From Polytrichum commune (taxonomy: Eukaryota > Streptophyta > Polytrichopsida > Polytrichales > Polytrichaceae), in NCBI GenBank assembly GCA_950295325.1, contig OX485803.1:74787554-74851553 (forward strand): DNA of 64,000 nucleotides, read 5' to 3'. Positions 1,961-43,599 of this stretch are shown here, in pieces (positions within the stretch are counted from its first letter, which is position 1; every line of letters begins with the position of its first letter). Made by a program: the position numbers and the translations under genes. Below the pieces are notes generated by a model. That model saw nothing but the letters and a program-made list of their open reading frames with translations, did no database searches and was not told the DNA's origin.

Positions 1961-1991
1961 AGTTTTTTGCTATCACTTAAAACAACAACAA

Positions 1992-2017
1992 CACTATATT
2001 CGGTATTTGGAGACTTT
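1992..2017 (+). repeat. Left terminal inverted repeat of the 18.2-kb element
   Basis: Starts CACTATATTCG, ends GGAGACTTT, and pairs with 20172-20197 at 23/26 positions. A second GAGAC follows about 15 bp inward, as in the related termini near 23.2 and 23.4 kb. Confidence 0.7.
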
Positions 2018-2391
2018 TTGTTGATTATGAGACTATATAAGGATGCACATTTCAAAAATGGACCAGTAATGACGACTAAAAATCCCATATGTATAATGGT
2101 ATGCTACTATTATTATACATAAAGGCATGGAAGTGAACAAAAATGTGAGGCATACATGAAAATAGTTGCGTATGAAATGACAACTCGTTATGAATGGAAG
2201 GGAAGATGCGAAGAATGAATGGAAGTTGAATGAATTAATTGGGATAGAAATACAATTATAATGGAAATACCATCAATGTCTTGAGTAACTTGGAATAGCA
2301 TAGAAAGTAAGCACTTAAATATGTTCTACACCTAAGCCCATTTAGGGAGTCCGTCCCACTAGTACGCTTCTAGTCACACTAGTCCGACCCA
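2018..2391. other. No gene seen; AT-rich, 3' flank of the left gene
   Basis: No coding signal. Several ACTAGT hexamers (2355-2385) make a small imperfect inverted repeat just downstream of the left gene's stop. I see no certain polyadenylation signal. Confidence 0.4.
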
Positions 2392-3377
2392 CTATTTTTT
2401 TTTTGCGGCTAAGTCCTTTTTTTTGGCGGCCTCCATGGCTCTAAAAATCTCAGGCCCACGACTGAATCCTTGTGTGTTGCCTGGATAGGAATATGTGTCG
2501 TTCTTGCATGTTTCAGGACGCGCTCCCGAATTGTACGAGGTGGTATTATAAGTAGAATACGAGGGCGTTTGCGAAAGGGAACGTCTTGCGCTTCTCCGGA
2601 GGGCCAGACAACGATCGGACTCGGAAGATGCGGCCTTGAGGGCGTGCCTATCCAAGGAGGACGTGGAGGAGGGCCGGGCACCAAGCGAGCGGGTAGCCAC
2701 CTGCGAAACAACGTCATAGGAAGATAAGAATAGGAATGGAGTGGGGAAAATAATGAGGGCGGTTTGGGATGGGCGCTCGTAAAGAGAACGGCACGCAAAC
2801 GGAAGACAAGGAAAGCAAAAGCGGGAAAGGGGTTTAGGGTTGAGGAGGGCACCTTGGATTTGGGGACGTCCATGCGGGGAACGGTGGGAACGAGGGGGGC
2901 GTCGACGGGAGCATCCGGAGCCGATGGAACTATTGCAATGTTGGATGGCGGGGGGGAGTCGAGGCGTGGAGGGCCCACGATCGCGGAGGACGTTGCGGGG
3001 GGAGGAACGGAGTCGGCGGGGGAGGTGTGGCAACGGGGGCCTTCCATGCGGAGACGGCGGCTCGGCCCGCGACGAGCGACAGCGTCGTCCCTCGAGGGCG
3101 AGAGGTGTCCCAAACGAACGAGCGTCCGTTTCTCCTTGGAGAGGGGGGAGGGCGACGGGGCGTACGCGCGGGGGACAAGTGCTGGGGGCGGGCTGTTGAC
3201 GACGCCGTCGTCGATGCCGACGTCGCGGGAGTAATCCACGGCCGAGGCCGCGTCGACCGCCGAGAAGTGGTAGAGGGATGGCATTTGGAAGTCCGTGACG
3301 TAGCGGGAAGGGGATGCGGGGAGCGAGAGGGGACGGGAAGAGCCGTCGACCACAGGGGCGTCGCATATGGGGGCAGA
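2392..3377 (-). CDS. Exons 5 and 6: low-complexity, basic C-terminal tail
   Basis: Exon 5 (3377-2853) begins SAPICDAPVVDG after a pyrimidine-rich tract ending CCCATAG, and is Pro/Ser/Asp-rich. Exon 6 (2700-2392) begins VATRSLGARP after GTTTCGCAG, is Ser/Arg-rich, and ends EAAKKKDLAAKKK then a stop. The intron between (2701-2852) has donor AAG|GTGCCC. Frames of the two exons differ by one but join in phase after splicing. No domain is recognisable. Because the region is very GC-rich, all frames are open, so this tail is the least certain part of the model. Confidence 0.45.
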
Positions 3378-6300
3378 CTATGGGCAAGAACAAGAACAAG
3401 AACAATCACAACAACAAAAGACATCCAAAAACGGGGCAAGCATTAGATATGTGAACCACATGATAACAAGCAAAGACATGGAGGCATTTCAAATCAATTT
3501 ATTGAGTTTGGCGAGCCTCATGATGCTCTTGAATACATTATCGCGGGGGCTTAGTGCCGCATTGCCGAAGGGGTTGGACCTAACAAAAAATGGGATGCTA
3601 CCGGCGTGGAGCACGAGCCTTCTAAGGTAGGGGGCTAGCCTATCGACCAAAAATGTGTCTTGCCTATCGCCGGTCCAAGTGTCCGGGAAGATGACGTTGC
3701 CCGGGGGGTTCAACACGCTCTTGGTGGGACTGTCGTCGATGAGGAGGGTGTTCTCAGGAGTCGGCCACCACCCGTGGGGCGTCCCCTGCAGACGGGGGAC
3801 GCCTTGCCAGAGTCTTGAGCGGAGGACCTTGAGGAACTGTTGTCCTCCGCCTCGACCGCCAAACTTGGGCACCGGTTGGCCCTTCTCGTCGAGCAGCTCG
3901 TCGCATTCCTCTTGGCCGACGACGAGGCAAGGGCGCGGGAGATCACGGAACAAGAAGTCGACGATGGGCTCCGTGTTCTCCATGACCATGGAGCTCCACA
4001 CAACGACGTGGGCGAACTCAACCACCTCGCGAAGGAAGTCGCGCAGGCCGGGACGGGCGCGGACAGCCTTGCGGTTTATGAGGGTCTCGAGCTCGCCGTC
4101 ATAGTCCCTTTCGTCGGGGTGACGGAAGGGACGCGTGGGAACCCTGGGGATGTGTTGGGTGTGACACAAGACCCCGTTGAGGTCAAAAACTATGAAAGGC
4201 TTGTTCCGGGTTCGAGGTCCACTGGTCGAGGGGTTGCGACCTATCTCCGGGGGGTCCTGTGATGAACAACGCGACTAGTTTAATTCTATGATCCAATAAT
4301 AAAAAATTTGCGTTCAAAATAAAGACGATGCATTATGGGAAAAGAGGAGGAAGTAAGGAGGGTGCAAGGAAAATGTGCACAAGGGCACAATTGCGAACGA
4401 CCGTTCGTGAATGAAGGCTGCGGGGCGGTGCGCATCATTTACGAACGCTCGTTCGTGAGCGCGGATGCATACATATACGAACGCTCGTTCGCGAAGGAGG
4501 TCGAGATGGGGTCGCACAGTTTTACGAACGAGCGTTCGTGAGTGAGGTGTGCATGCAAAGAATGCAAGGACGCACAAGAGTACAGACAACACAAGACGCG
4601 AGAATATGCAATAAGTTGAGGGGATGCGAGCAGAGATCGTCTGCTCATATATTAATTCGGTGAATATGTACAATTGTCTCGCGTGATAATCTATCACAAT
4701 TTCCTAAGGAAAAAATTCAGTGTCCTACAAAATTGATCGGCCCAAGGGATCACGTAGAAAAAGGCTCGCGCGGGCAACGTGATGTCGATGGAGTTGAAGC
4801 GCCAAGAACACAACGCGGGGATTAGTGATGTTACGAACGCGCGTTCGTAAAACATTTGGCATTCTCAGAGATGAGTTACCTCTTTGGTTAACGAACGCAC
4901 GTTCGTAATATCCATTGGGGCAGCAGCCTCTGGATCCATGACCTCCGCCGGACGCTCCGCCTGAGACGACTGGGTCTGTTGGATGAGCTCCACGTCGTCG
5001 TCCCCGCCCAGGTCGAGTCTCTCCATGCGGACATCCTCCATGTGCGCGGATGGATGTCGTTCCTGTTCAGGGCTCTCCACGACCATCCCACGCGGACCTG
5101 CCGAGTCATTGGGGCTCCCCTGCGTTTCCTCCACAATGACCATGTCAGTGTGTTGCGCAGTGTCATCGCCCCTCCTATCTACAACCCTTGGGACGACGGT
5201 GAAAGAGGTCGTGTCCGTGTCTGTGGGCAGTCCTACCCTTGAAGGGGGAGGGGTGAGGACTGCCGGACCTGAAGATTCACGAACGCGCGTTCGTAAATCT
5301 TCATCCTCCCTTAGCGCCGCCGTGATTGCATCGTGGGAGGTTGAGGCGGTCGCCGTCACCTCCGGGGGCAATGGACTTCCCGCCGGCGTTGGGTGTGGAG
5401 CTGTTTGGTGGGAAGGCCCTCCTTGGTACATGACTGGAGGTGGGGGCTGTGAGGGGTATCCTCTAGGGGGGAAGGGGTAAGGTTGTTGGACCGGCGCAAA
5501 GAAGCTCTGCATGTTTCTGAGCATCTCGAAGATGGCGTCAGTTTTGGCCGCTGATTCCCTCAGCTGCTCTTGCAGCCTGGCCAGATGCTTGGCGCTCTCC
5601 TCCTGGGCTGCAGCCATCTCCTCCTTCATCTTCGCCTCCAGCTTGGCATTGAGCTCAGAGACGGTAAGCGCCTCCTCCTTCACCCGCTTGTTCTTGTCGT
5701 AGTCCACCCCAAGCTCGGCCATGATGTCCATGTCCCCCTCGTCCTCGTCGGAGACCTCGATGATTGCTCCCGGAGGCAACTCCACGTAGGGAGTCTTCTT
5801 CATCCTCCTCCTCGTGTTGCGGAAGAGGTCCAAAGATGGACGCGAGCGTTGGTCGAGGATGTCCAGGGTTTCCATCTTCGGAACCACGGCGGGCCTTGGA
5901 GACTGTGACGTCGAGCATCCGCCTGGCGTTCCGAAAGGCTCCGCAAGAGACGTTCGCGCGGGGAGGAGGTCCAGGGTTGTCCCCGCGGACGACCCTGTAT
6001 AACCACCCGGAGTCCCTTGAGGGTCGGGAAGATCTGTCGTTGGCGGCAAGATCCGAAGCGGGGGTACGTCGAAGGACTGCAGAATGGCGTCCACGTTGGC
6101 GGAGGGGGCGGGCTCGTCGTCCTCTGAATCGTGGAGTGGTATGCCCTCGTCGGCGGGCATACTGAAGTCCATCCTTGGGACAGAGATGTCCTTGAGGTCC
6201 ATCGTCGACGCCTTCGCACGGTGGATCTTGAAGTCTTCTTCGTCGATAGCGTCAACGAAGGTGTTGACTACGAGACCCATCATCTGTGAGAAGAGGGCAA

Positions 6301-9241
6301 TAAGGTCAGAAAATACGAACGCACGTTCGTAAACATCAAAGCGTGGCGTGCAACGAGTTTCAAGCATTACATTACGAAGGGGGTTATGTTTACGAACGAG
6401 CGTTCGTAAACATCAATGCGTCACGTGCAGCGACTTTGAAACAATGCGTTGAGAAGTTGGTTAATTTTACGAACGAGCGTTCGTAAATGGAGTCTGGACA
6501 ACTTACCATGGCCGCATACATGAATTTGGAGCCTCCACATACGTTGTATACCGTCTCTCCACTTATAACCAGACTCTGCAATATAGAGACGTAGAACTCC
6601 ATCCTGAGTTCCATGGCGGGGAAGATGGTGTAGAGGGTCTCTTGCAGCAGATCCTTGGGAGGGGGATGCGGGATGCTGTAGATTTTCTTGAACGTGTTGT
6701 TCGCCTTGATAGGCGGTCGCCCATCCCTAAGCTCATTGTACGTCAAGAAAATCAGGCTGACCGCTCCCACTTGCTTGTTGCCCCTGGCCTCGTTGATGGC
6801 CACGATCCCCTCCGTCTTCGCTGGCACGTACGTGCTGTGGAAGATGCTGTACTCGAATTTGATCTTCTGCTCGTACAGCTCTGTGACGACCGACAGCTTC
6901 TCCTGTTCGACTATCCACAGCCAAACGTGTGGCTCCCTCATGGCCGGCGATTTGAACTCCATGAACTTGGCCATGAAGGGGTTGTAGAAGGGAATGTCCT
7001 TCCCCCCCTGCCTTGACGCACCCGGGATCCCCCTGAAATCGATCAGGGCAAAAGGGCAACCCCGTCGATCCTCCCTCACCTCGGCCCTGCTTATGGTGCC
7101 GTCCCACTTCGAAAATGTGACCCTCTCCACGCCGGAGGTCATCACGCAAAACCTTGCCACCCCTTCGAATGTGGCGTTCCTCTTCCTCTCCAAAAATTGT
7201 ATGTACAACATTACCTCGTGGGGATCCGTGTCGGTTTTCTTAGTCCTTTTGTTCCCCTTCAACTTCAAAACCGAGGCGTGCTCCTTGACCAGATTGCGCA
7301 TGGAGGCTCCGTTGATGTTGTAGTCGACCTTTAACAATTGCCATTGCGGCCAGTTGATGTCGCCGTCGACTTCAAAGATTTTGTACTCTGGTGCGAGTAC
7401 GCTCAATTCTCTCATGGCAGCAGTCTTCAGCTTCCGGTGGTCACACCACTCCTTGATAGAGTACGTGCCGGGCTTGTGCTTTGGCCTCTTCAAAAAGATC
7501 TTGGGATAGGGAAGGTTTCTTCCCACGGTGTTCCCAAGAACATAAATCGCACACCTCTTCAGCTCTGACTCCGTCAATCCCTGGAGGTGTCTAAAGAACT
7601 CCCTCAGTAGTGGGGGCGCCTCACCGGTTTTTTCCGTGCTGTACTTCTCCTCGGTGTCGGGATTGACCAAATCGCCCGAGCTGTGTGCATCAAAAAACTG
7701 TGTCCACAAGTCCCAGGTGTCCCTGTTGCAGCAGATCAGTCTGAGCTCACCCTTCAGCTCAAGCACTGATTTGGTGGTGGTGGACTTCATATCGATGGAA
7801 GAGAACTTGTCTACCATCGCGTCGCAAAATGCCTGCACAAAACAAGATGTCAGTGTTGCACATAATACGAACGCACGTTCGTAAATTGAGTATGTAATTG
7901 AAGTTTTCATGAATCTAACACTTTACGAACGTTCGTTCGTAAACTCACCTTCCATTGGGGAGACTGGTTCTTGGCGTTCTCCCTTTCCTTTGGTGGGCAT
8001 CCGTGTGCCACCCAGACGTCTCTGGCAGCCACTATGTTAGCCGCCCACGAAGCCTCGAACGCCTTGATTTTGTTCCCCGAGTTCAGGAAGGTTGAAATCT
8101 TGCGCAGCTTGTCCCAATCGTCCGACCAGACCAAGAACGCCTTCCAGTACCGCAGGTCAGCCTTCAACTCGTGCTGGAAGTTGTCGTCCTTGAAGATCTG
8201 TTGCGACGCCTCCAAGCTGTGCTGACCATCTATAATCCAGAATTCTCCATTCTGGATTCGCGGCCAATCCACCTCTGTCGGTCGGAATGTCAGCCCCTTG
8301 GGCATGACGCAGACTGTCTGTCTATCCCACTTGACGTTATTCATGAGGTTGTTTATCTGCCACTTCACCCCACCGTTCTCGCGAGACCTTACCACCCACT
8401 TGTTGGGTGACTTTTCGCACTTGAAGCAGTCCACGTTGAACGTGAAGTGGCGCCCCATGGGCCAGCAATCCTTCGAGTAATTATTGAAATCTCGTAGGAT
8501 CTTCGTTGCCTTCACCGCATCTGGATTCTCACCCTTCTTTAAAGGGGTTGGCATCACGGGAGGAGAGCTCACCTCAGCGCCCTCTGTTACCCCAGACCTC
8601 TCCATTTCGTCCCGGGACCTCTTCGATGGCGTGGAATGACAGCTGGGACCCTCCGTCACCCTGCTCGCGGAAGGCACCGGCTTGGATGCACTTCTCGATC
8701 CTCCTGCCCCGATTGCGGATGGTTTCCGTGGGCTCTTCTTCTTCTTGTTGGCTTCCGCGACCGCGCTATTGTACTTGGAGATATTCAAGGAGAGCGCGAC
8801 CAACTTCCTTGCTGTCCAGTACGAGCTCAGGGCGTACTTCGTGAAGAGGTCCTTGAGGAAGTGTTTGGCATCAGCCACTACGTTATTTTCCGCGTATGTG
8901 TAGGAGAAACTATGTCTCCTGTACTCTAACAATAGGTTAATGTGATCCTTCTTGTTTTTCATGTCTAGAATCACATAATCTCCTTGTGCCTCAATTGATT
9001 CTACTTCCCAAGTCTTCATCTGCACCCATTGCTCTGGCTGGTCCGGCGTCATTTCCAGCTCGTATGTGAAGCGAAGACAGAAAAGACCGTCTGATGTCTT
9101 CTCTGGCAGTGCCGTCCATTCCCCTATGAAGTCCTCCTTGGGGACATAATTATCGTTTCCATTGGGGTCGGACACTGACTCTGGTAGTTGATCTATCTGC
9201 ACTGCGAACATCTCAATGGCGCTTCTGCTCGGTCTGGCCAT
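2392..9241 (-). CDS. Putative six-exon gene: ParB-like + MTase-like + coiled coil + FCP1-like phosphatase + basic tail
   Basis: My gene model is join(9241-7949, 7832-6507, 6283-4880, 4256-3537, 3377-2853, 2700-2392). All five introns have GT..AG ends (GTGAGT, GTAAGT, GTAACT, GTATTC, GTGCCC donors) and all are phase 0, giving about 1,858 residues. Modules: ParB-like (motif 338-342), N4/N6 methyltransferase-like (about 690-890), acidic and coiled-coil linker, FCP1/NIF phosphatase (about 1360-1570), low-complexity tail ending in repeated lysines. The start ATG abuts the leader-intron acceptor CTCTGCAG. The first three introns, the leader and two coding spots carry palindromes. Exons are GC-rich against AT-rich surroundings. 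The uninterrupted phase is the main argument for one gene. The alternative is two or three genes, with the FCP1 part separate because intron 3 is long (623 nt). Function is inferred only from domains. Confidence 0.6.
3537..4256 (-). CDS. Exon 4: FCP1/NIF-type (HAD) phosphatase domain
   Basis: Encodes residues 1342-1581, starting DPPEIGR after the acceptor TTCATCACAG. The HAD signature FIVFDLNGVLCHT is at about 1363-1375. In FCP1 the motif is DxDxT/V; here the second Asp is Asn (DLNGV), a variant I associate with plant FCP1-like proteins. Motif II is VVWSS and the later acidic motif is LLIDDSPTK (DD at 1515-1516), followed by NPPGNVIFPDTW. FCP1-family enzymes dephosphorylate the RNA polymerase II C-terminal repeat or related targets. 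Without splicing at AAT|GTATTC the frame ends ...AKLNKLI at 3489, so this could instead be the C-terminus of a separate gene. No palindromes occur in this exon. Confidence 0.75.
4394..4906. repeat. Palindrome cluster in intron 3 and end of exon 3 (6 copies)
   Basis: Copies of ACGAACG-NN-CGTTCGT start at 4394 (14-bp core, CGAACGACCGTTCG), 4441, 4477 (last T changed to C), 4524, 4833 and 4891. The middle two bases differ (AC, CT, CT, AG, CG, CA). The first five are in intron 3; 4891 is in coding sequence, 11 bp from the donor. Confidence 0.97.
4880..6283 (-). CDS. Exon 3: end of MTase-like fold, acidic and coiled-coil linker
   Basis: Encodes residues 874-1341. It opens MMGLVVNTFVDAIDEED, completing the strand after motif I. 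Then come an acidic patch (SDEDEGDMDIM), a predicted coiled coil of about 60 residues (SELNAKLEAKMKEEMAAAQE onwards), a proline-rich stretch (PPRGYPSQPPPP) and a long Ser/Pro/Asp-rich region. Two palindromes are translated in frame here, at 5279-5294 (LRTRVRES) and 4891-4906 (ITNVRS). The exon ends TKE before a GTAACT donor; if unspliced, the frame would stop at 4865. The lower part is probably disordered. Confidence 0.6.
5279..5294. repeat. Palindrome inside exon 3
   Basis: A perfect ACGAACG-CG-CGTTCGT copy read in frame on the minus strand. It and the 4891 copy are the only two in coding sequence. Confidence 0.95.
6315..6484. repeat. Palindromes in intron 2 (3 copies)
   Basis: Full 16-bp copies start at 6315, 6392 and 6469, spaced exactly 77 bp. 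The 6392 and 6469 copies share sequence context on one side, so part of this intron looks duplicated. The 6469 copy begins 16 bp after the GTAAGT donor on the minus strand. Confidence 0.97.
6507..7832 (-). CDS. Exon 2: degenerate DNA N4/N6-methyltransferase-like domain
   Basis: Encodes residues 432-873. The order of elements matches a beta-class DNA methyltransferase. A strand-loop, FALIDFRG at about 693-700, sits where a DPPY-type motif would be. A helix-strand-helix block (FMEFKSPAMREPHVWLWIV, then FEYSIFHSTY) follows. The last is SGETVYNVCGGSKFMYAAM at 855-873, resembling the GDxVLDxFxGSGT-AA motif I. It continues across the intron as MMGLVVNTFVDAID. The catalytic DPPY is not present, so it may bind DNA or SAM without methylating. 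This assignment comes from motif order alone; a profile search would settle it. Confidence 0.5.
7867..7940. repeat. Palindromes at both ends of intron 1 (2 copies)
   Basis: The intron is 7833-7948 (116 nt). One copy (7925-7940) directly follows the GTGAGT donor; the other (7867-7882) lies about 30 nt before the CAG acceptor. Together they occupy more than a quarter of the intron. Confidence 0.97.
7949..9241 (-). CDS. Exon 1: ParB-like nuclease-fold domain
   Basis: Encodes residues 1-431 of the model, starting MARPSRSAIEMFAVQ. Residues 338-342 read DGQHS inside EFWIIDGQHSLEASQQI, the hallmark loop of the ParB/sulfiredoxin fold (usually DGxHR or DGQHR). The segment after it, WKAFLVWSDDWDKLRKISTFLNSGNK, fits the helix following that motif in ParB-type proteins. 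A basic Ser/Pro-rich stretch with KKKKSPRK lies about residues 200-260. In bacteria and phages ParB-like domains are often fused to DNA methylases, which matches the next exon. The canonical Arg of DGxHR is Ser here. The exon ends QWK before a GTGAGT donor that runs directly into a palindrome. Confidence 0.7.
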
Positions 9242-9274
9242 CTGCAGAGCACATAAACATTTAGTATTGTGTTT

Positions 9275-9836
9275 ACGAACGAGCGTTCGTAATTGACAAA
9301 GCAAATCATATACACTAATCATTGAACTCTGGCTATGGATACCCGTGAGAAGTTGTAATGATGTCTTCGCTGATTTCATTTACGAACGATCGTTCATAAA
9401 GAATGTGGTTGCTAAGGTGTATTTGACACAAGTTTACGAACGTGCGTTCGTGTTGTTTCTAAACAAGTCCACGAGTTGTCCAGGGTTATCTAATTTCCAC
9501 GAGGGTTGTTCGAATTTCCATGAGCATCTTCTAAATAGGTGAATTAATACTTTAGTTCTTATTTACGAACGTGCGTTCGTAAATAATGCTACTTGGAAAT
9601 GCAGACAATTACCATGAAGGGTTTGGTATATTGTTATAGTTTGTGATTACGAACGTTCGTTCGTATTTTTGTATGTGTAATTGGATTTGAGGATTTTCTG
9701 ATGTACAGGGTATAGACGAATATACGAACGTGCGTTCGTAAAAATGGAGGGTGAGGTGCGTATTTACGAACGCACGTTCGTATATGTTTGTGGGGTAAGG
9801 CATGTATTCACGCCACATTTACGAACGAACGTTCAT
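9275..9836. repeat. Palindrome array in the 5' leader of the left gene (8 copies)
   Basis: Copies start at 9275, 9382, 9436, 9565, 9649, 9724, 9766 and 9821. Most extend to TTTACG..CGTAAA. The 9382 and 9821 copies have one base changed in the right arm (CGTTCAT). Spacing is irregular, 42-129 bp. The ATG at 9241 follows the acceptor CTCTGCAG, so this array is in a leader intron or the promoter. The upstream 5' exon was not located; CTTCATG|GTAATT near 9614 is a possible donor. Confidence 0.95.
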
Positions 9837-10250
9837 AAATGTGGTCATCTGGGATTAGGAAATGGTATATTTATTTATGTACATATATATCCGTACATAT
9901 ACGTATAAATGTTGGTATGAATGTTGCAATCTGGCATTGTTCATGATCCTGCAACTCGTGATCAGATTGATGAAACACAAGTGAAAAATGGAATCAGAAC
10001 AAAATTGCGAGTCAGTGATTGATAGTTCAGAATGAAGAGGAAAGTGTTATTTCATACAAAACATGACATACCTCATAATGCAGAAAACAAATCACAAGGA
10101 ATTCATCAAACAACAATTTCAGATTGTGAAGGAGTGATTTGTAAAGGAAACCTGTACTCACATTGAATTGTTGCACACAAATCCTCCTGCCTTCACTTTG
10201 TCACACTCTCAAGCCTTCACAACTTATATGCAAATCCTACACAAACCCTG
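9837..10250. other. No gene; AT-rich spacer
   Basis: Upstream side of the left gene. No palindromes occur beyond 9836. I see no coding sequence; promoter elements cannot be assigned with confidence. Confidence 0.4.
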
Positions 10251-10415
10251 ATGTACACAACTCACAAGCTTCACAAAACTCAAGCTTTCTGAAGCTCTGA
10301 AGCTCTCAACCTCTCAACCTTTCTGAAACTCTCAACCTCTCAACCTCAAACTCAAGCTCTCAAGCTTTCTAAAACTCTCTACCTCTCAAGCTTTCTAAAA
10401 TTCTCTACCTCTCAA
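10251..10415 (+). repeat. Tandem repeat array, left part
   Basis: Diverged CT/CA-rich units based on CTCAAGCTTTCTAAAACTCT. The array is split by the CACTA element and resumes at 11398. Confidence 0.85.
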
Positions 10416-10563
10416 CACTAGTAGAAAATTCTGCGTCCGGATCAACAGAAAGGCGTTGGTCGCGGTTGTTACATAGGACGCGTTGACCTGGACATGATGT
10501 AACACAATTTTGTTGATTTTTTCTGTTGATATGGTCACAAAAAGATTTTTAAAAAAAAAACTT

Positions 10564-10599
<36 letters not shown>

Positions 10600-10602
<3 letters not shown>

Positions 10603-10818
10603 TACATTAAAAATTAAAAAATGAATAAATGGAAGATCTGCAATTCCTAACACCTCCCAAGTAACCCTCAACCTATACCTCACCTACAAAGTATAGACTA
10701 CCTACCACTCACCTAGGTGGCAAAGCCCAAGCCGAAGGTGTCGGCCACGGGAATCGAACCTTGCACCTAGTGACATCCACACATGTGCCTTAACCACTAG
10801 GTCATCACATCACACATG
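10600..10818 (-). mobile_element. tRNA-derived SINE inside the CACTA element
   Basis: The minus strand shows a Pol III A box, TAGTGGTTAAGGC, and a B box, GGTTCGATTCC, about 45 bp apart near the start. A tRNA-unrelated body and an A/T-rich tail running into an (AT)n tract follow. The tRNA fold is not complete, so this is a SINE and not a tRNA gene. Confidence 0.75.
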
Positions 10819-10874
10819 ATATAAATGGTGTGTTTTAAACCTTTCTAGAATAAGGCCACTATTTTCTCTTTACT

Positions 10875-11060
10875 ACCTACTTGATGTATATATTTACTGT
10901 AAATATATACAGTATATATATAGTATATAATTACAGTATATATATAGTATAATTACAGTATATATACAGTATATAATTACAGTAAATATATACTGTATAT
11001 ATTTATTGTAAATGTATACATATACATATTAATTCATATACATATATATATAATATTAAC
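10875..11060. repeat. TATATA/ACAGTATATA-rich tract
   Basis: Multiple TACAGTATATA and TACTGTATATA units in both orientations give strong hairpin potential. It lies within the CACTA element. Confidence 0.7.
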
Positions 11061-11397
11061 AATCAACTAATATAATATTTATAATATTTACACACCTTTG
11101 AATTCGTAAATATTTCCATATCCATACACTTACAAGTCCATAAATTGCAAAAAATTAAAAAGATTTTACAATATTCCAATAGATCCTAGAATATTCCAAA
11201 AAGATTCCAAAAATTTCACATTTACTAAAATTTTGTTGATTTGGTCATTGTACTATTCTAATCAACAAAAATGTAGGCAATAAACAGTTGATTTTTACAA
11301 AAATTCAAAAATCAGTGAAATCGGTCATTGCAATGCCCGGATCGACAAAGATCTGTTGATTTTTTGTTGATTTGGTCATGATTTTCTAGTAGTGCAA

Positions 11398-11550
11398 TCT
11401 TTCTAAAATTCAAGCTCTCAAGCTTTCTAAAACTCTAAACCTCTCAAGCTTTCTATAACTCTCAACCTCTCAAGCTTTCTATAACTCTCAACCTCTCAAG
11501 CTTTCTATAACTCTCAACCTCTCAACCTTTCCTACTCTCAAGCTTTCCTA
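11398..11550 (+). repeat. Tandem repeat array, right part (about 26-bp unit)
   Basis: Units such as CTCAAGCTTTCTATAACT then CTCAACCT recur about five times. This continues the array left of the CACTA insertion. Confidence 0.88.
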
Positions 11551-12060
11551 TTCTCAAGGTTCTGACAACACAACAAAATAACATTCACAATGAGGCTCTA
11601 AAATTGGCAAGGGCTTCGCTGCACCTAAGAGCTCCTCTCCTCCTCTGCTCCAAATGACAAATGAGGAGGAGAGAGAGGGGCGCGGGGAGGTAGCCGGCGC
11701 CGCTAGGGTTTCCAAGCGGCGGTGTCGGGTAGAGAGGGTTCCGCCTTGGGAAAGCGTTGGGCTTCTGGCTGCAACTAGATTTTATCGGACCCGTCGAATC
11801 TTTTGATCTTCAATCGAATCTTCCGGTCTTTTAGTCTTCAATTTCTTCAATTTCTTCTAATCTTCAACCTCTTTCCCGTCGACCTATCCTGTTGCGGCTC
11901 TATATGGATAAAGGGTAAGGGTAGTGTGATAAGAAACCACGGGCTTCGGACGGGTAAAACGGGACGTCAGAACACGAGCTGACGTCCGAAAGATTGGCTC
12001 CTAAACTTTCAAACCCACGGTGACCAGCAATCGCACCTCACCAGTGGGAACGACAGAAAA
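11551..12060. other. No gene; short GC-rich block at 11640-11780
   Basis: The GC-rich block contains GGCGCCGCTAGGGTTT, which resembles a plant 5' leader with a telo-box. No supported reading frame follows. It could be a promoter relic between the two divergent genes. Confidence 0.35.
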
Positions 12061-12064
12061 CAAC

Positions 12065-12178
12065 CTTGTGGGTGATTAATCCCACTTCGTTGTCACAAAC
12101 AACCTTGTGGGTGATTAATCCCACTTCGTTGTCACAAACAACCTTGTGGGTCATTAATCCCACTTCGTTGTCACACAG
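12065..12178 (+). repeat. 39-bp tandem repeat, three copies
   Basis: Three near-identical units beginning CAACCTTGTGGGTGATTAAT differ at one or two positions. The unit is a multiple of three, so an ORF runs through it, but I see no sign of real coding. Confidence 0.95.
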
Positions 12179-12639
12179 GAAACAAATTACGATGCAGAAA
12201 TGAAATGCAACTAGCCTCCAAAACCGGCTTGGAATCACACACACAAGAAAAAGACAACGTGCCACAAGCAACCACGCATTCGAGTCTTGAAGCCTTCAAT
12301 TCTTTAATCTGTCCGTCTTCTATGGTCGGTCGAAGTCTCAGCTCTTCTTTTAAGAACCAACAGACTTCCCTCCACTCAAACAAGCACAAATCTTGATTGC
12401 TAACTTCCAAAACAACAAGTGAGATCACTCATGAATCACAAATCCCTCGTATTTTATTTCATATTCTTCTCAAAAACAACTCACACCGTGAGCTTCGAAT
12501 CCACTTCTCTCTCTCTTCACAACTTCTCTCCCTCAATAATCACATAACATCTTTCCTTCACCACCTCTCCCTATCCATGCGAGAGACAAAGTTCTCTCTT
12601 ATCCTCATCACATGGCTTCTAATCACCCATTGGTCCAAA

Positions 12640-12835
12640 GTAACTCAAGATAACTAAAAGACAAAAATAAACTATGAGTAAATAAAAAGGTAATCTATTT
12701 CTATCATTTGGTAAAGGTAACTAAAAGTAACTATGAGTAAACATAAAGGTAAGCAACTTCTATCCACTTCTATCCTTAGGTAATGATAACTAAAATAAAC
12801 TATGAGTAAATAAAAAAAGTAATCTACTTCTATTC
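12640..12835 (+). repeat. Diverged repeats of a TAACTATGAGTAAA unit
   Basis: Three copies of AACTATGAGTAAA followed by AAAGGTAA-type sequence lie about 55-65 bp apart. AT-rich and non-coding. Confidence 0.7.
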
Positions 12836-12954
12836 TTTATTATTTTTCTCCAAGACCAAGACTCACAATGCAATATTAAATACGTACACATCTATATAGT
12901 GTACGTATTTACATCACGACAGCGGCCACGTGGCTAGTGGCCACTAGCGAGGGC

Positions 12955-13190
12955 TGGGATGGGGGAGGGGGATGGGGATGTGGGATGGGGATGTGGGATG
13001 GGGAGGGGGGAGGGGGAGGGGGGAGGGGGATGGGGGAGGGGGATGGGGATGTGGGATGGGGATGGGGAATGGGAATGGGGAGGGAATGGGGAGGGGATGA
13101 GGATGGGAGGGGATGGGGAGGGGATGGGAAGGGGAGGGGATGGGGATGAGGGGATACCATGGGGACATGGAGGGATGAGGGTTCAGGAAA
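12955..13190 (+). repeat. G-rich GGGGATGGGA minisatellite, G-quadruplex prone
   Basis: About 230 bp of GGGATGGGGA/GGGGAGGGG units with nearly all purines plus T on the plus strand. Open frames here (Gly/Met or Pro/His-rich) are composition artefacts. Confidence 0.92.
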
Positions 13191-13539
13191 AATGAAATAG
13201 GAGATGGGAGGAGCTTAGTTTAGGGACATAAATTTGACTTTCCGTATCCCCTTAGTACCTCGACATATGGATTCCTTGTAAACATATTTTAGAAAAGTAT
13301 GTTCAGATAATTTGTATTTAACAATTCATGTCATTTAGTAGGTTTTCGATGAAGAATCCACCCCCAAGATGCAAATGTCGTTTTCATGAACGAGACATCT
13401 TTAAAGTTCTTCAATGGTTCCTCAAATAAATATTACATATATAAATGACTCAATTTAAATTGTGGAGAGGGGCTATCTGATTCTCCACAAGAGGTGGATG
13501 AAAATTCAATTTTCAATACGATGTCATTAATTTCATGAG

Positions 13540-13910
13540 GTGTTAGCTTGAACCACCCTTAATATGATATTTAGTGTTAGATACTCTAAATACAAACGCA
13601 TAGTACACTAAATATCACTAACCCTATGAAGGTAACTACTATTCATTGCGAACTCAAACACTTAATGTCAACTATAATGGTAATATGTGGATGTCGCATG
13701 CACAAATTTTGTGTAAGGAAATTAATATGAAAAAAACAATTAACAATGATAAAAGCATAAAGGACATGGTAGTAGGAAATGTGGTGGCCCATTTAATATG
13801 TCCAACACTAATTATCAAAGAATTGAAATTTAGTGTTGACCATGATAGCGTAACAACACTATATTATACAATCAAACACTAAATATCATATTTAGTGTAG
13901 TGTATTTTAG
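13540..13910. repeat. Repeated ACTAAATATC motifs in both orientations
   Basis: Near 13565, 13603 and 13880, copies of ACTAAATATC or its inverse GATATTTAGT occur. The last pair forms the palindrome ACTAAATATCATATTTAGT. No gene. Confidence 0.55.
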
Positions 13911-14089
13911 CCATGTGGTCGCATGTTTTGCTAGTAGTATCAATTGATAGTATGAGCTTCCCATAAATTAAGTTAGTGCGATATGGATTATTTAGGAGTC
14001 GATATTGTTTGTGTATATAATGCATTGAAGTAACGATCTAAACCTTAAGCCCGCAAACCACATAGACAACTCTTTCACAAACTCTATAC

Positions 14090-14128
14090 CCAAACCCCAA
14101 ACCCCAAACCCTAAACCCTAAACCCTAC
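14090..14128 (+). repeat. Interstitial telomere-like tract (CCCTAAA)n
   Basis: Two CCCCAAA units followed by three CCCTAAA units; CCCTAAA is the standard plant telomeric heptamer. It is too short to be a telomere; likely a repair scar or telo-box cluster. Confidence 0.85.
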
Positions 14129-15440
14129 ATCTTTTTATCTTACCAACCTTTCTTATATATGGCCATGTTGTGGTCTATGCGCATCATGTCAAAATGGTCT
14201 ACCAATGTTGGTTCGATTGGAAATTGCTTTATTTGGGTCATAGCAACTATAATAATCTAGACTCATGCCAATAATTGTCATTTTGATATAAAACATTGGT
14301 TTAGGGGGTGAAGAGTGAATTTTGAAATGCTAGCCCTTTCACCTTAATAGTTTTGAGTGCAATTTGATCACACAATACACACTTAGTCTTATTATAACAT
14401 GAATGGTATAAGACTTCAACTTAAATCAACAGTTAAGCTATGGTCATGCACATACTTCTTGTTGCAAATAATACAAATATATAATTGTAAGAGCATACTA
14501 TTGTATGCACCATTCCAAATTCGTTATCCATTTCCACACCATGGTGGACCTAAAGTGAATTTCCAATAGGACGTCAAGTCATTTAATTAGGTGTTAACTT
14601 GAACTAACGATCGAATACTAGTGCATTAAACTTTAATTTTCACCAATGATGAATTGCAACAATGATTCATATTAATATGGGCCGATGTTTGGTGAGCCTC
14701 CAGTTCCAAATGTCCTCAATCTACCTAGCACAAGCCATTATGGATTAAGCGACTTTTTATTGGTATTCATGCACTTGGTGACCATATTACAAGCATTTTT
14801 TTTATGTGAATCATATGATACCTACAATTTTAGGGGATTCCACAATATGTTCTTAGCCACTCTTACCTCATTGTGTGTGTGAATATATATATCACTTAGA
14901 CCTTCATCAATTCACTTGGACTTCACACCTTAGTCGCAAATCATTTAATACTCAATGTTAACCCATCAACATATATATATATAATATAATAACCCATATA
15001 TAAAATAGTAAAATAGTAAAATATACGTATATATACATATAAATATAGACATATAGACATATTTTCGTGCGACCTTGGTAACAACTAAGGTGTGCGACGG
15101 ATTTATAGATTTACAATATGTTGCGTACACGCAAGACATGTTCCATATATAATGCTATTTATATATTGCGCATGGATGGAATGGCATATTGTTAGGTCAA
15201 AGTAGGCGGCGGGAATCCGCTTTTTAAATAGCATCAAAGGGATTTTGAACCATCGGGGGGAAGGTACTTAAAGCTCTTCCCCCCCACAGAAGAGCTCTTT
15301 TCTGCGGCACATCCAAGTGTGCGCTCCACAGACCTGACTGGAACGCGCTTAAACCATTTTCTTGTGCGCCAACCCTACACCACCCAGGTCCACTACAGAC
15401 TGCACATACCCGTATATACCGCCGCAAATACCGGACGTTT
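14129..15440. other. No gene; AT-rich, upstream of the right gene
   Basis: Tracts of ATATAT lie near 14970-15060. A hairpin-prone AAGCTCTTCC...GAAGAGCTC stretch is at 15270-15300. No conserved frame. Confidence 0.4.
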
Positions 15441-16514
15441 ACGAACGCACGTTCGTAAACGTGAGTTGGTAGCACATGTACAATAGGTACATCGATATGA
15501 TGTGAGTTGTTTACGAACGTGCGTTCGTAAGTTGATCACAACCGTACTCGACATTGAGTTCCTTATAGACAGAACTAGGCACGAAAATTGTGTCGATGAT
15601 ATACGAACGTACGTTCGTATATCTACCTTCAAGACCCAGACGCGCATGAGTTCCTGTGTAACCGTTTTCTCCAACGGAACATCTGGTGATGGGATATTTA
15701 CGAACGTGCGTTCGTAAATATCACCTGGGATTATTTTTCAAGAATCCAAAAAACATTCTTTAATTTATACACTTCAGTGCATTGGCCACGTTAACAATAT
15801 GCAAGTTAAATACGAACGAGCGTTCGTATTTCTCACTACCGTTTGTGTCCGCGGAGAATTATGTTAGTTGAATTTTACGAACGCACGTTCGTAAATACCA
15901 CCTGTCCACCGTCCACGCATCCACCAACAGGCCTGTTGACGCAAGCATGTGTAGAGGACTACACCGTGTTTATGATAGATACGAACGCTCGTTCGTATCT
16001 ATGCAATCATGATTTAGTGATAGATGTCGACTGTCATTTTCCACTGGTTATTGGATAACATGTTTCCCTGTAACGTGGCTATAGATATCTCTATTCGGAC
16101 GTGTCCAATCATTTTTTCCAAACACTGTCGCGGCTGTGACATACAGATGATCGGTCGTTTGCATCCGCCCCTAAGTTTCGGCTGGAACTTACGAACGATC
16201 GTTCGTAAACACTCGCCCATCAAATATGATGCTTACTGCATGTGGATAAAGTGGCAAGTATATTTTAGGTGCTCTTATAATATGTCCCATTTAGATTTGA
16301 TTGTATATTGGGTTGATATTTTCGTCCGCGCGTTCGTGAATATATGTGCTTGTGTTGTCCCTTGGTGGTGGACAACCCTTCCAATGTTTTATTGGCGACT
16401 CGACCCAAAGCCCTTCACGGGTAATATATATCGGAATGGGGTTCCGTTGTGCAGGGACGTCTGAGTCCCGTGTAGGATTTGCATGTCATCGAGCTGTTGT
16501 CGAACGCACGTTCG
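15441..16514. repeat. Palindrome array in the leader of the right gene (8 full copies plus 1 core and 1 degenerate)
   Basis: Full ACGAACG-NN-CGTTCGT copies start at 15441, 15513, 15603, 15700, 15812, 15877, 15981 and 16191. A 14-bp core copy is at 16501, and a degenerate one near 16321 keeps only CGCGTTCGT. Centres vary (CA, TG, TA, TG, AG, CA, CT, AT, CA). All lie upstream of the acceptor at 16654, on the start-codon side of the right gene, mirroring the left gene. Confidence 0.96.
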
Positions 16515-16659
16515 TCTTCATATGTGAGGTCCCGCAACGGTGTGGCGAGAGTTGTTTGTGATTTTTGAGCCATATATGTAGGCATATCTCGTATCCACTT
16601 TTGTATGCATTGTGGTGGTTGTTGTGTTGGTCATTTTATTGGTGGTTTGTTTAGGTTGG

Positions 16660-19600
16660 ATGGCGATGCACGTTGGATATAGTTCATTGGAGTTGTCCAC
16701 AAAAGCTTCCTCTTCCGATGATGACTGTAAACTATCTTCGCCATCGGCGGGTAGTCATGGCATGGCAAATGCCATGGGTGGGTTTGTGGATGCATCCTCC
16801 CACGAATCATTTGAAGCGCACGAACAATCTATACGTTCCGGGGATGACAATGATGACATTCCGTTATATGCCGGTTTCGGTAGGGAGCAATGGGTGGGCC
16901 TTGATGTTGTTCTTTTCAACGATGTTGGTGTCCCCGTGGCAGATGGCATATGTAGAAACTCTGATCCCCGTGATTGTGTTGATGCCAACCCCCTTGGTCC
17001 CGATGATGTGGGTGTGTGCATCTTGAATTCTTTGCTTCCGCTTGACGTCCCGGTGACATGGAGATTTTCCTTGCGTCGATGGCCTCTTTGTCGGGTTCTC
17101 CATGACGGAGTAAGCTTGTTGGACCATGAGCGCCGCCATAATCAAACGCAATTAGCTTTGTTGACCAAAATACGTCCTCGCAAAGGCCTACGCAGATATG
17201 ATTCTAACCGTGTGCCTCGTGGAGATAAGGAACGTCGACGGGATCGCATATTGGGAGACGAAACTATCCGTCTTGTGTCCGCCAAAGACTGTTGCGAGAG
17301 GAAATGTTGCCAATTTTTCCCGCGGGAGAAAATTAAGTCCCTACGTCAAGAGATGTGGCTTGCGGATTTCCGTATGAGATCGGCAAAGAAACTCGAGGTC
17401 CACAGAAATGTCTACATTGACACCCATGGGCGTAAGGTGGTCACACTTGAGAATGTGGAAGTGTGTTGTACTGCGTGGTATACCATCCACGCCGTGTCAA
17501 AGTCTGACTTTTATAGGTTTCAAAAATATTCATTGTTCGGTCGCCGCTCTCGATTTCATGGCAATTCGGGCACAAAGAAACCTAGGGAGGCTACACTCCA
17601 AGCCTCCGCGACACTCTCCACCATCATAGTCCCATTGGCCGATGCAATGCCCCACAAGACGAGGACATTGTCGTCAGGGGAGAAAGTTGTATAAATGGTA
17701 TTGCCCACGGGTACAAAATGGAAGAACATATTAACGGACATCAATGAAGTGGGTCGCATAGCGGGATGTGGGCCCATTTCTTTGTCCAAGTTGAGTGTGA
17801 TTAAAAACCAACAGTTTGCCGAATACATTTTGAAGAGACCTGGGGACAAGTTCGCTAGGTGTACGACGTGTGAAAAATACAAAGGTCTTCGAGACGCCCA
17901 CCCCATAGGCACCGAATCCCACACTAGACACCAAGCAAAATATATTGAACATGTCAACAACCAAGAGGCTCACCGTCAAGATTACTACAAGAACCGTGCT
18001 CTATCCATAATGAGGCCTACAGAGGTTCTAACAATCATCCATGATAAAATGGACCACGCCAAGACCGCATGCCCTTGTTATGCACGCAAAATTAAGGCCA
18101 CGGATGGTCTCTTCAAGTTGCCCGTATCTGTCACAGGTTTGTATTGAATCACAAATATGTATTCAAATTCTCTCAAATTTTACTGGGTGTGTTTGCCAAA
18201 TGTCCAATTTCATACCTCCGTTTGGAGTTGTCGTTGTTATTGTTGTTGTTCAAGCATCGTTTGTTTTTTTTCGCAGGGATGATTGCCCACGGCCATGGAG
18301 ACGTAAAGTATGCCCATTATGGGTTGGATTTTTACCCTGGCGATGCTAACCACACAGTGGGTTCATTTGCAAAACTCTTGCGCGATCTGGAGAAGCCGCC
18401 GTTACATTCATCACGTGCACTTTTTGATGGTTGTGGAACGACACCCCTTTACGAAGCAGTGCTTGCGGGGAAGGAGGTTTGTATGTCGTCATTGCCAGAA
18501 CCACCGGGAGAACCTATTTGTGCAAAACCATTGCCTCCAACTCTTCACGTTCAACTTGATAATTGCGCGAAAGACAACAAATGTCGATACGTATTTTGTT
18601 TTTGGTCATTGCTTGTGGCAAAAGGAATCTTCAAAGAGGTGTTTGTGTCGTTTTTGATGGTGGGACATACACACGACGACATTGATGCATCATTCGGACG
18701 GTGGAACATGAAGTTGCATGAAGAAGATTTTCCAACCATACCTCTTCTTATGAAATCGTATATGAATTTGGACCATATGCCAGTAATTCCGCACATGATT
18801 GAGGAAGTACCAGATTTCAAGGCCTTCATCAAGTCATACATGTTGAAGGGAGGGGACCGTTTGGTGGGGCATACCAAAGCACAACAATTCCGATTCTATA
18901 TAAGGGATGATGGTCTCCCAGCCATGCAATTCAAGCTTTTGTGCACATCTCCTAATTGGGGACCGGATGATGGTATACTCGTATGGCGTCAAGACAATGA
19001 TGGGAAATGTTTGCTCCCGGATGGGGATCCAAAGCCTTGCAAACCCGACCCCATGAGGAATGGGCCGGAAATCATCAAAGGCATATCCGGATTCATTGAA
19101 TATTGGAAAGAGTTGTGTGAGGAGGACATCACTAGACGTGTTAGAGATACTCATGAACCTTTGATTGCGTATTGGGATCGCATTCGCTCGGCCCTAATGA
19201 CACTTGGTGGTGACACCCGTACAACTTTAACACAAGGATTTTGGCCATAAAGTCGTTTGACGGTTGTCGAGTCCGACACCATGGTTTTTAGCAATGGAGA
19301 CGTTCGTGAAGAGTTCGCAATGGACGAGCATTACGTTGGCCCTGCCCGCAATCGACCGGCACCGTCGTTTCGTGTAGGTGTTGATTGCCATGAAGGTTAT
19401 TTGGTCCTTGTACGAGCAGGGGATGAGGAACATCCCAAGCCAATTTGGTTGGTGAAAGCATTGTCTTCACCCAATTTTGTTCGAACTAGCCCCAACTTTC
19501 GTCAGATTGAGGTGGAATATTGTCGTCCAAGTACTAAAGACCAGAACGTGCTACGCACTTATTTAGATTGGGACACCAAAAAGAATTTTAAGTGGACAGT

Positions 19601-19796
19601 GGACTCAGCGTACACACCGGTTTGGATAAACACGGATACTATACTTTGTGCTTGGAAGCCGCGCAAAGGTTCCAAAACAGAAACAATGACCATCCCCCAA
19701 AAACATATAGATTTTGCCAAAGACAACTTGGCACGTATTGCAGCTGCGGAAAATGACGCCGATAATGGATATGAAGCGGAAGACGGAGATGTGTAA
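16660..19796 (+). pseudogene. DUF7869-type transposase-like gene with two in-frame TAA stops
   Basis: My model is exons 16660-18136 and 18277-19796 (intron of 140 nt; GT..TTTTTTTTCGCAG), 999 codons counting stops. The ATG at 16660 lies 5 nt after the acceptor TTTGTTTAG. A Cys cluster, KDCCERKCCQFF, is near residue 217. The conserved block has LHVQLDNCAKDNKCRY and then FLMVGHTHDDIDASFGR, the pattern of DUF7869-type proteins. Its Asp/His-Asp residues suggest an RNase H-like, DDE-type nuclease. Single TAA codons at 17692-17694 and 19248-19250 interrupt an otherwise open frame on both sides; one C-to-T change from CAA would explain each. The C-terminal 180 residues after the second stop still look protein-like. 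I infer a transposase for the surrounding element, now disabled. Confidence 0.7.
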
Positions 19797-20171
19797 ACAT
19801 AACATAGGTGGGAGTTCATGGCGAAAAACATGGACGCTTAGTAGACTTGGTTTTTAATAGACTTCATGGACTTGTCACACTCCATTGTGGTATACGTTTG
19901 GGATGTGCCATCCAAATTCATAAGAGCCTTACTTATGGGATGCGCACCCCAAACTCTATAATGACATAAACCATTTGTTTTTTTAGATTCGATTGTTATT
20001 TTCCACATGGAGCTCACGTTTGCATTTTAATTGACATTCTCTATTTTTAGAAATAAGAATATTCTTTACGTGCAACTTTTTAAATCGTTATGTTCTTGAT
20101 GTTCCCAATATTCCGTATGCCCACAATATTGGCATCCCAAACTATGGGCAGATTTTATTTTGAGACTTTCG
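19797..20171. other. No gene; 3' flank of the right gene
   Basis: AT-rich with no recognised feature until the 18-bp palindrome GAGACTTTCGAAAGTCTC at 20162-20179, which overlaps the right terminal repeat. Confidence 0.4.
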
Positions 20172-20197
20172 AAAGTCTCCGATTAACGAATATAGTG
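20172..20197 (-). repeat. Right terminal inverted repeat of the 18.2-kb element
   Basis: On the minus strand starts CACTATATTCG and ends GGAGACTTT, paired with 1992-2017. The inner part forms a perfect 18-bp hairpin with the adjacent sequence. Confidence 0.7.
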
Positions 20198-23189: not shown

Positions 23190-23442
23190 CACTATATTCG
23201 TTAATTTGAGACTTTCTCTTGTCTCAAATTAATATATGGACCACAACAACATGGTCTACTGTTTGGGTCGTCCTACCTAAACCATCTTGATATGAGTTCT
23301 TAATTGGGTTCTTGATATGAACACCTGCTTCAAAGTATTTGCATCTTACAACGTTCTCCAATATCTGTGTGATTTTATCCATGTTCTTATATTTGTAACT
23401 GTCTCAAAATGCCGAAAAAATCTCAAATTAACAAATATAGTG
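23190..23442. mobile_element. 253-bp non-autonomous relative of the 18.2-kb element
   Basis: Left end CACTATATTCGTTAATTTGA; the right end, read inverted, is CACTATATTTGTTAATTTGA, followed in both by GAGAC or GAGAT and a second GAGAC/GTCTC. Both match the 1992 and 20197 termini. No coding capacity. Flanks (AAT and ATA) show no clear duplication. Confidence 0.6.
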
Positions 23443-42436: not shown

Positions 42437-43020
42437 TGTTAGGTTTAGGCTTAGACTGAAGAGCTCCAAACCCTAGCTCTGGCAATGGCGATCATTTCTT
42501 CACTTTTCTGTCACTCACTTGATTCCTATACTAGTGTACTATAAGAACAACATTTCAATACTCATAGAAAAATCACACTTATATTTAATAATGATCACCA
42601 AATTGATATTGACCGGAGCACTTTCTTGGTCCACTTTACCATGCTTGCATCCTCCTCCCAATCATGTTCACTATTGAAGGTGGCGTAGTTTATATTTTTA
42701 CATGTGTTTTTGGATCCTCACCTAGAATCAAATATAGGGGTCCGATTAAGAAAAGTAACCGAATAGCATCCGCACTTATCCGAAACACAATTACGATCTT
42801 GCCGACGAGGACATTCAACCACAGTTACTACAATGATCCGACGAGAACAAGAGCATCATTCGAGTTGCCATGATCCGGGACAAGGATCCCCTAAAAATTG
42901 GAACTCTGGCCACTATTCCATTCATTCAACACTGAAGCTGGTCCTTCAACAATATTGCACAAAGTGCAAATTTAATCCGAGGTTCCAGAAGGTTGGAGGG
43001 GGGTTCGAGAACCAGCAGCT

Positions 43021-43599
43021 ATGGCGATGAAGAAGATCAGATCCTGCTTTGTGAGGATTCTCGCCACATTATTTGTTGTTTTTGTTGCTCAAGATTGTGA
43101 AGCAAGACCAGCGCGCAATGTGCAGTCGACTCTGAAACCGAGGGTGATCAAGTACTACGTTCACGACGACTTACTGCAGAAGGCGAACAACACAGCTTTC
43201 ATCATTGCTGGCCCTGGAGGCAATGTGAGTGCGTTGGAGCAATTCTCTCTGGTCGCGATTAACGATCTTATCACCGAAGAGCCGAGTGTGGGCTCACGGA
43301 AGCTCGGAAACGCGCAGGGAGTGTACTTGATCTCCGAGTTCTTTCCGAGCAGACCGCACATTCATCAGCAGTTCACAGCCGTGTTTAAGGACAAATACAA
43401 CGGGACGATTGCGTACCAAGGTGACGACGACTTGATGCTTCCTGTGAGAGAGATCGCGGTTGTCGGAGGCACGGGAGAGTTTCGGAACGCCTTTGGTTAT
43501 TGTTTCATTACTACGGTCAAGCAGACCGATGCCTGGTCTTATAGTCTTGCTTTTGAAACTCATCTTTGGACACACGATCTGGGACGAGACGATCGATAA
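43021..43599 (+). CDS. Dirigent protein
   Basis: Single-exon gene of 192 residues. Residues 1-28 (MAMKKIRSC... VAQDCEA) form a signal peptide, so the product is secreted to the apoplast. The dirigent fold follows, with KYYVHDDL at about 44-51, GNAQGVYLISEFF at about 96-108, FTAVFKDKYNGT and the most conserved end REIAVVGGTGEFRNAFGY. Possible N-glycosylation sites include NNT, NVS and YNGT. Dirigent proteins have no known oxidising activity of their own; they steer coupling of phenoxy radicals or related cyclisations, as in lignan synthesis. Length is normal for the family. The gene lies inside a Mutator-like element, about 1.06 kb from the left arm's inner edge and 1.5 kb from the right one. 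There is no frameshift or missing motif. Confidence 0.93.
   Translation: MAMKKIRSCFVRILATLFVVFVAQDCEARPARNVQSTLKPRVIKYYVHDDLLQKANNTAFIIAGPGGNVSALEQFSLVAINDLITEEPSVGSRKLGNAQGVYLISEFFPSRPHIHQQFTAVFKDKYNGTIAYQGDDDLMLPVREIAVVGGTGEFRNAFGYCFITTVKQTDAWSYSLAFETHLWTHDLGRDDR

Follow-up and report, generated by a model that had tools for sequence, protein, structure and literature searches.

Sequence-specific anti-silencing by transposons has already been shown for the VANDAL elements of Arabidopsis (PMC5735166, PMC10398659; statements on published systems, here and below, follow portions of the papers cited). VANC21 binds short motifs that lie in introns, between genes and in terminal non-coding regions of its own element, and brings about a loss of methylation (PMC5735166), and VANC recognition is element-encoded and family-specific (PMC5735166, PMC10398659). 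In CACTA transposons, the reiterated motifs vary from one family to another, presumably along with the protein that binds them (PMC2613891). Here we describe a 64,000-nucleotide stretch of the genome of the moss Polytrichum commune (assembly GCA_950295325.1, contig OX485803.1, positions 74,787,554 to 74,851,553 of the forward strand; this whole stretch is called the window). The palindrome ACGAACG-NN-CGTTCGT (motif A) is repeated there inside an 18.2-kb DNA transposon (1990-20199), and two diverged families in the same genome have different palindromes, located in the leader, in the intron and after exon 2. With moderate confidence, we favor the explanation that each family encodes a dimeric protein that recognizes palindromes across the family's own non-coding DNA, probably against silencing (as VANC does), for transposition, or both.

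The features shared with VANC21 and VANC6 of Arabidopsis VANDAL are a short motif repeated across the non-coding DNA of the element's own family, a motif density that is high only in the element, expansion through tandem repeats, and motifs that differ between related families (PMC5735166, PMC10398659). Element-encoded recognition specific to each family would be a further, putative likeness. Unlike the VANDAL motifs, motif A is a long dyad with a free 2-bp center and CpGs in its arms; the element carries DUF7869, NIF and ParB-like genes and makes a 4-bp target duplication; and three parallel families with graded motif divergence occur in one genome. No MULE-type (VANA) transposase was detected, as only DUF7869 was recognized by Pfam in the presumed transposase gene and in five of its relatives. 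No VANC-named family appeared among the Pfam matches; VANC sequences themselves were not compared.

With the CACTA elements (Spm/En, Tgmt; PMC2613891) the transposon shares CACTA within the terminal repeats, reiterated motifs that differ by family, and gene-less derivatives. Unlike in CACTA elements, the ends read AACACTA, flanked by CAAC/CAAC and CATA/CATA in the two complete copies examined, and the duplication is 4 bp and not 3; a 3-bp parse of the flanks of the window element gives CAA versus TTC. Pfam found no tnp2/Transposase_21 in the pieces scanned, and the motifs lie in introns and leaders and not in subterminal positions; between the ends and the nearest motifs there are 1.1 kb on one side and 3.7 kb on the other.

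The initial annotation of the window had counted about 30 copies of motif A. Our scan agrees: 24 sites are exact, and 30 are found when up to two mismatches are allowed, all 30 with none or one, whereas shuffles gave 0.00 exact and 0.06 near-exact sites. The span of 4394 to 16514 given in that annotation is nearly correct, but the range begins earlier, owing to one single-mismatch site, and runs from 3114 to 16515. The center is free, as had been claimed: the 30 window sites use 10 of the 16 possible dinucleotides, and 130 exact sites taken from six stretches, window included, use 14. The composition of the 260 half-sites reveals a longer site, (a)TTTACGAACG, in which each of three T before the core (A after the core) is present in 85-93%. 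Each site holds four CpGs, but the surroundings are AT-rich only where they are non-coding (37-45% GC in leaders and introns); the exons of the left gene, the middle one of the three element genes, have 55% GC. The six stretches also hold 36 A sites with a single mismatch; in 15 of these the change is a CpG transition and in 16 an A-to-G change, so there is no marked excess of deamination.

Twenty-two of the 30 sites lie in one of the two left-gene introns or in the leader of either the left or the right (DUF7869) gene. The earlier statement that all but two sit in introns or upstream of starts was thus nearly right; two do lie in coding exon 3, but one further site lies past the left-gene stop and one inside a putative open reading frame (ORF). 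The carrier of the sites is a mobile element, not a cluster of host genes. The sites are distributed as follows (palindromic sites are given without strand):

3114-3129: outlying site ACGAACGAGCGTCCGT, one mismatch, with one A-type arm and one C-type arm (see below), inside an ORF
4393-4539: four sites upstream of the NIF ORF, from the motif scan
4833-4848: single site just beyond the left-gene stop, from the motif scan and gene model
4891-4906: coding-region site near the C-terminus of the left protein, kept in copies R2228, R2450 and R2360
5279-5294: coding-region site encoding LRTRVRES, kept in copies R2228, R2260, R2450 and R2360
6284-6506, minus strand: left gene intron 2, with three sites (6315, 6392, 6469)
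7833-7948, minus strand: left gene intron 1, with two sites (7867, 7925)
9275-9836: eight sites in the left gene leader, from the motif scan
15441-16515: nine sites upstream of the DUF7869 gene, from the motif scan

We compared introns 1 and 2 of the left gene between four copies in the same genome (the window, R2228, R2260 and R2450; six pairs). The copies R2228, R2260 and R2450 show the gene order of the window; R2450 was covered only from within the DUF7869 gene onward, and R2260 is interrupted by insertions. DNA identity of pieces of R2228 to the other copies is 66-92%. At the two sites shared in each intron, 28 of 28 arm letters are identical in all six pairs and in both introns, and the centers agree in two to four of four. 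Outside these sites, 11 of the 12 comparisons give 53-72% agreement; only intron 2 of R2260 versus R2450 stands apart (92%). The third site in intron 2 of the window has no counterpart in the other three copies.

Metagenome proteins related to the left gene, some of which may derive from the same or a near species, point in the same direction. Nine of 12 spell motif A (as YERxFV, TNxRS or RTxVR) in intron or leader stretches read as protein; of the other three, P0010 is a near miss by eye, P0005 has none and P0015 has another motif. The corresponding fractions are 2 of 44 for relatives of the NIF ORF and 0 of 95 for relatives of the first exon of DUF7869. These are a weak control, since most of those ORFs reach little upstream DNA, and in the window itself 144 bp separate the first ATG of DUF7869 from the closest site upstream.

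The first element of family B was met adjoining R2450 (C1:2474 kb), where a blind count of palindromes gave TTTGGGTCG-NN-CGACCCAAA. Its left gene is 23-43% identical to that of the window in the matched pieces and 66-71% identical to P0015; the identity of its NIF gene is 43%, and the only end located reads AACACTATATTCGTTAAATTGAG. P0015, the metagenome protein of this family, spells VWVARPK, which corresponds to motif B, in its intron, the sole case among 154 proteins. Scoring with P0015 gave 49 loci, of which eight were fetched, picked for differing reading-frame lengths. All eight contain motif B, TTGGGTCG-NN-CGACCCAA, in 5-19 exact copies each (91 in total), and none of the 91 sites falls within the coding matches, which cover 55% of the bases. 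Together with the element adjoining R2450, the family palindrome GTTTGGGTCG-NN-CGACCCAAAC is present in nine of nine loci read, and neither an A nor a C site was found in any of them. In one family B element (C1, about 2483.0-2483.6 kb) we also observed a 98-bp tandem repeat near the terminal repeat that contains the palindrome-like TATGGTTTGGATTGCCCTACCTAAACCATA.

Family C was found with P0005 (53 loci scored, six fetched). Its palindrome, TTTACGGACG-NN-CGTCCGTAAA (ACGGACG-NN-CGTCCGT), is present in six of six loci read; 41 exact core sites of the form (a)GTTTACGGACG-NN-CGTCCGTAAAC(t) were counted, none wholly exonic, and 54 of the 82 half-sites also carry the outer G. No motif B site was found in the six loci. 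Genome-wide, motif C has 1394 exact places versus 1 for the control; among the first six clusters listed, three hold a scored C-family gene and a fourth lies about 6 kb from one. Over all stretches read there were 130 A sites in A stretches, 101 B sites, 41 C sites and 3 foreign A sites; that is, 3 of 275 sites were foreign. Because those foreign A sites occur in three C loci, and because the site at 3114 of the window is half A and half C, there are hints of cross-talk or switching between families A and C. In the C loci concerned (L129, L131 and L132), the single A-type site lies at about 1122-1166 (oriented), just upstream of the start.

The ten-letter arms of A and C differ in one position, those of C and B in four, and those of A and B in five. 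P0005 (family C) is 49% identical to the left protein of the window and P0015 (family B) 35%; closer proteins go with closer palindromes, and in this sense co-divergence is seen in these sequences, on three points. Separate palindromes in the same places are expected if the protein of each family recognizes only its own DNA. We noted one further repeat: at C1:2252.7-2257.8 kb, about 35 copies of GGCCTCGG-AT-CCGAGGCC occur with a spacing of mostly 96-128 bp and a fixed AT center, perhaps a satellite or the tag of a fourth family.

The genome-wide motif scan that the initial annotation had proposed gave 5602 exact motif A sites in the 407.8-Mb genome, versus 4 for the reversed control pattern. 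That annotation had named a general satellite or a known factor site as the outcome that would speak against it; neither appeared, as all sites examined come from a single transposon family, two relatives of which use other palindromes. The first 100 motif A sites listed fall into five stretches (33, 17, 27, 3 and 20 sites), each with element sequence. At about 25 sites per copy, 5602 sites would amount to a few hundred element copies. When exon 1 of the left gene served as the query, 97 copies were scored out of 1093 first-look candidates; every one is 85-100% identical and many share the same score, which suggests a recent spread of family A. Among viral contigs, 98 stretches had an exact motif A and none of the 98 had more than one; clustering is therefore not a general property of the motif. 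With the patterns used, the viral contigs contained no relative of left exon 1 or of one DUF7869 protein (P0105).

The second complete copy of the element, R634, is 9.5 kb long, has the same ends and is flanked by CATA/CATA. It contains only fragments of the DUF7869 and NIF genes and has no match to the left gene. R634 nevertheless keeps 33 exact motif A sites, in two groups with a spacing of mostly 33-34 or 65-93 bp. Since the sites were kept without the main genes, this argues that they are useful in cis to the element and not merely for expressing its genes.

Motif A as a predicted dyad protein-binding site is strongly supported, because the arms are constrained and the center is free in introns that have otherwise diverged, and because the sister families preserve this layout with arms of different letters. 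The opposition of such a site to simple copying, as first proposed, is too strict; copying contributes too, as seen in the arrays of R634, in a 77-bp tandem repeat at 6314-6487 of the window, and in family B arrays spaced 32-46 bp. We infer three steps beyond the dyad itself, namely that an element protein binds, which protein this is, and that the effect is anti-silencing. Each dimer would contact two arms of 10-11 bp across an unread 2-bp center, and some 25 sites in introns, leaders and spacers would let the protein coat its own element. Coating would keep the element promoters free of silencing, acting in trans as VANC does, and might also serve mobilization, including that of gene-less derivatives. 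If protein and palindrome are both private to a family, the tag would work as family self-recognition. By analogy, escape from silencing as for VANC, or aid to transposition as for TNPA, would be the most likely consequence of binding.

The strongest competitor, which we nonetheless consider unlikely, is that the sites are determinants of transposition like the TNPA-binding subterminal repeats of CACTA, with the bound element protein joining the ends and effects on silencing being secondary. R634, with both ends and 33 sites but without its main genes, fits such a role, as do the TNPA motifs, which are reiterated cis-determinants of transposition and differ between CACTA families (PMC2613891). 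However, the motif A sites keep the distances from the ends given above, most lie in introns and leaders and two in a coding exon, and the pieces scanned held no tnp2-type CACTA transposase by Pfam. Each of the three genes has sites upstream, and the left gene, unlike DUF7869, also has them in its introns. Such an arrangement would also be expected of autoregulatory operators, through which a regulator of the element represses or activates its own genes without any role in silencing escape or movement. Operators usually need fewer sites than the roughly 25 per element, the 33 in a copy without working genes and those in coding regions, and we regard this explanation as improbable.

Much less probable still is that the palindrome acts as a folded strand, an RNA or DNA hairpin, and not as a duplex. 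The letters beyond the core pair over at least five bases in 7 of the 30 window sites, versus 1.1 in shuffles (reached in 0 of 20,000), and in 16 of 104 distinct sites, versus 5.6 expected (reached in 0 of 5000). However, this concerns a minority of sites; the excess comes mostly from 15441-16191, whereas the 13 sites at 3114-7925 alone are like shuffles (5320 of 20,000 reach the summed run). A shared tandem or gene-conversion history can yield an equal excess, and a 2-bp center is too short for a stable loop unless the inner pair opens. Transposons do use host factor sites, but we see hardly any room for the idea that motif A is the binding site of a general host factor, borrowed by the element: three families in one genome have three different arms at the same element positions, and all A sites listed are within stretches holding element sequence.

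The left protein would be the first candidate for the palindrome binder postulated under the explanation we favor, because its gene holds the intron sites. Its DGQHS motif resembles, by eye, what we take to be the ParB/Srx box. Among six relatives, one matched DUF6551 (E=0.03) and one a PHROG ParB-like partition protein (E=0.096), both below threshold; together with the DGQHS motif, these matches make the ParB label a lead and only a hint. The nucleation site of ParB-parS systems is palindromic. Motif A shares the 16-bp length of the nucleation site in the ParB-parS and KorB clamp systems (PMC7053999, PMC8494293, PMC11790492); unlike those systems, the element has no significant ParB match, no ParA was seen in it and its host is a eukaryote. 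It would be a long shot, in our estimate, that a ParB-type clamp was captured by a eukaryotic transposon superfamily, loads at dozens of family-specific parS-like palindromes in introns and leaders, slides out and coats the element, which would make it a mobile, self-addressed chromatin opener with a specificity split at least three ways in one genome.

Several observations weigh against a family-specific, element-encoded binder. The left protein had no significant match to a named family (best PHROG 21482, function unknown, E=0.0019), the fold model of its relative P0005 was poor (mean predicted local distance difference test score, pLDDT, 51), and a PDB fold search with that model returned nothing at E<=0.001. 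Divergence along with the families is also conceivable for the DUF7869 and NIF proteins, either of which could be the binder. The leader sites are looser than the intron sites (arms 0.74-1.00, outside 0.45-0.98; the closest pair, R2260/R2450, is uninformative in this comparison). The separation is imperfect, since one A site occurs about 105 bp ahead of the match start in three of the six C loci, and two of the six listed motif C clusters (25.98 and 31.28 Mb of C1) match no scored C-family gene. A DUF7869 relative (46-66%, another family), perhaps a fragment, lies next to an element end at C1, about 2262-2263.5 kb, and no palindrome is repeated within 5.8 kb of it. Finally, VANC motifs are short and, in the portions of the two papers considered here, are not reported as free-center dyads (PMC5735166, PMC10398659).

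An element of different make-up from VANDAL, with three protein-palindrome families side by side in one genome, would point to more than one origin of self-addressing. With arms that differ in one, four or five letters and many copies nearly identical to each other, the families would form a ready-made set for reading the joint change in specificity of a DNA-binding protein and its many sites. The arrangement also points to a testable role for DUF7869 and the DGQHS left protein, two protein kinds with no assigned function, and family-specific palindromes could guide epigenome tools.

The genes of the window element are, from right to left, DUF7869, the left gene and the NIF/FCP1-like phosphatase; the left gene has a reading frame of 1345 codons over three exons. 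The 4-bp target duplication CAAC is at 1986-1989 and 20200-20203, the left copy within an AAC run. The remaining features are:

1990-20199: whole transposon, 18.2 kb, with inverted ends AACACTATATTCG at 1990 and 20199 and a 4-bp duplication
1990-2017, plus strand: terminal inverted repeat at the NIF end
3492-4262, minus strand: NIF/FCP1-like phosphatase ORF (PF03031, E=2.6e-16), its position repeated in other copies
4868-6283, minus strand: left gene exon 3, from our gene model
6507-7832, minus strand: left gene exon 2, from our gene model
7949-9241, minus strand: left gene exon 1, carrying the DGQHS motif, ParB-like by eye
16660-18136, plus strand: DUF7869 gene exon 1 from the first ATG, with an in-frame TAA at 17692-17694
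18276-19796, plus strand: DUF7869 gene exon 2 (PF25273, E=9.1e-40), with an in-frame TAA at 19248-19250
20172-20199, minus strand: terminal inverted repeat at the DUF7869 end

Because of the two in-frame TAA codons, the DUF7869 protein of this copy, the presumed transposase, is probably broken. The fold model of the DUF7869 relative P0108 was poor (pLDDT 55), and in sequence searches against PDB chains the best E-values were 0.41 and 1.4. Among named proteins, the closest relatives come from Physcomitrium patens, at 36-47% identity. A literature search found no paper naming DUF7869 and, judged by titles and the beginnings of abstracts, nothing fitting on ParB-like or giant palindromic-repeat DNA transposons of mosses.

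The window holds no tRNA and no Rfam family at the gathering score. Outside the element, a 253-bp miniature element at 23190-23442 carries no tag site; its terminal repeat, CACTATATTCGTTAATTTGAGAC, closely resembles that of the transposon. Positions 1-1980 contain, by eye, the relic of a Copia-type retrotransposon on the minus strand, with an inverted pair at 1306-1335 and 1685-1714 within it. In keeping with a land-plant host, an ORF at 42976-43599 resembles, again by eye, a dirigent protein.

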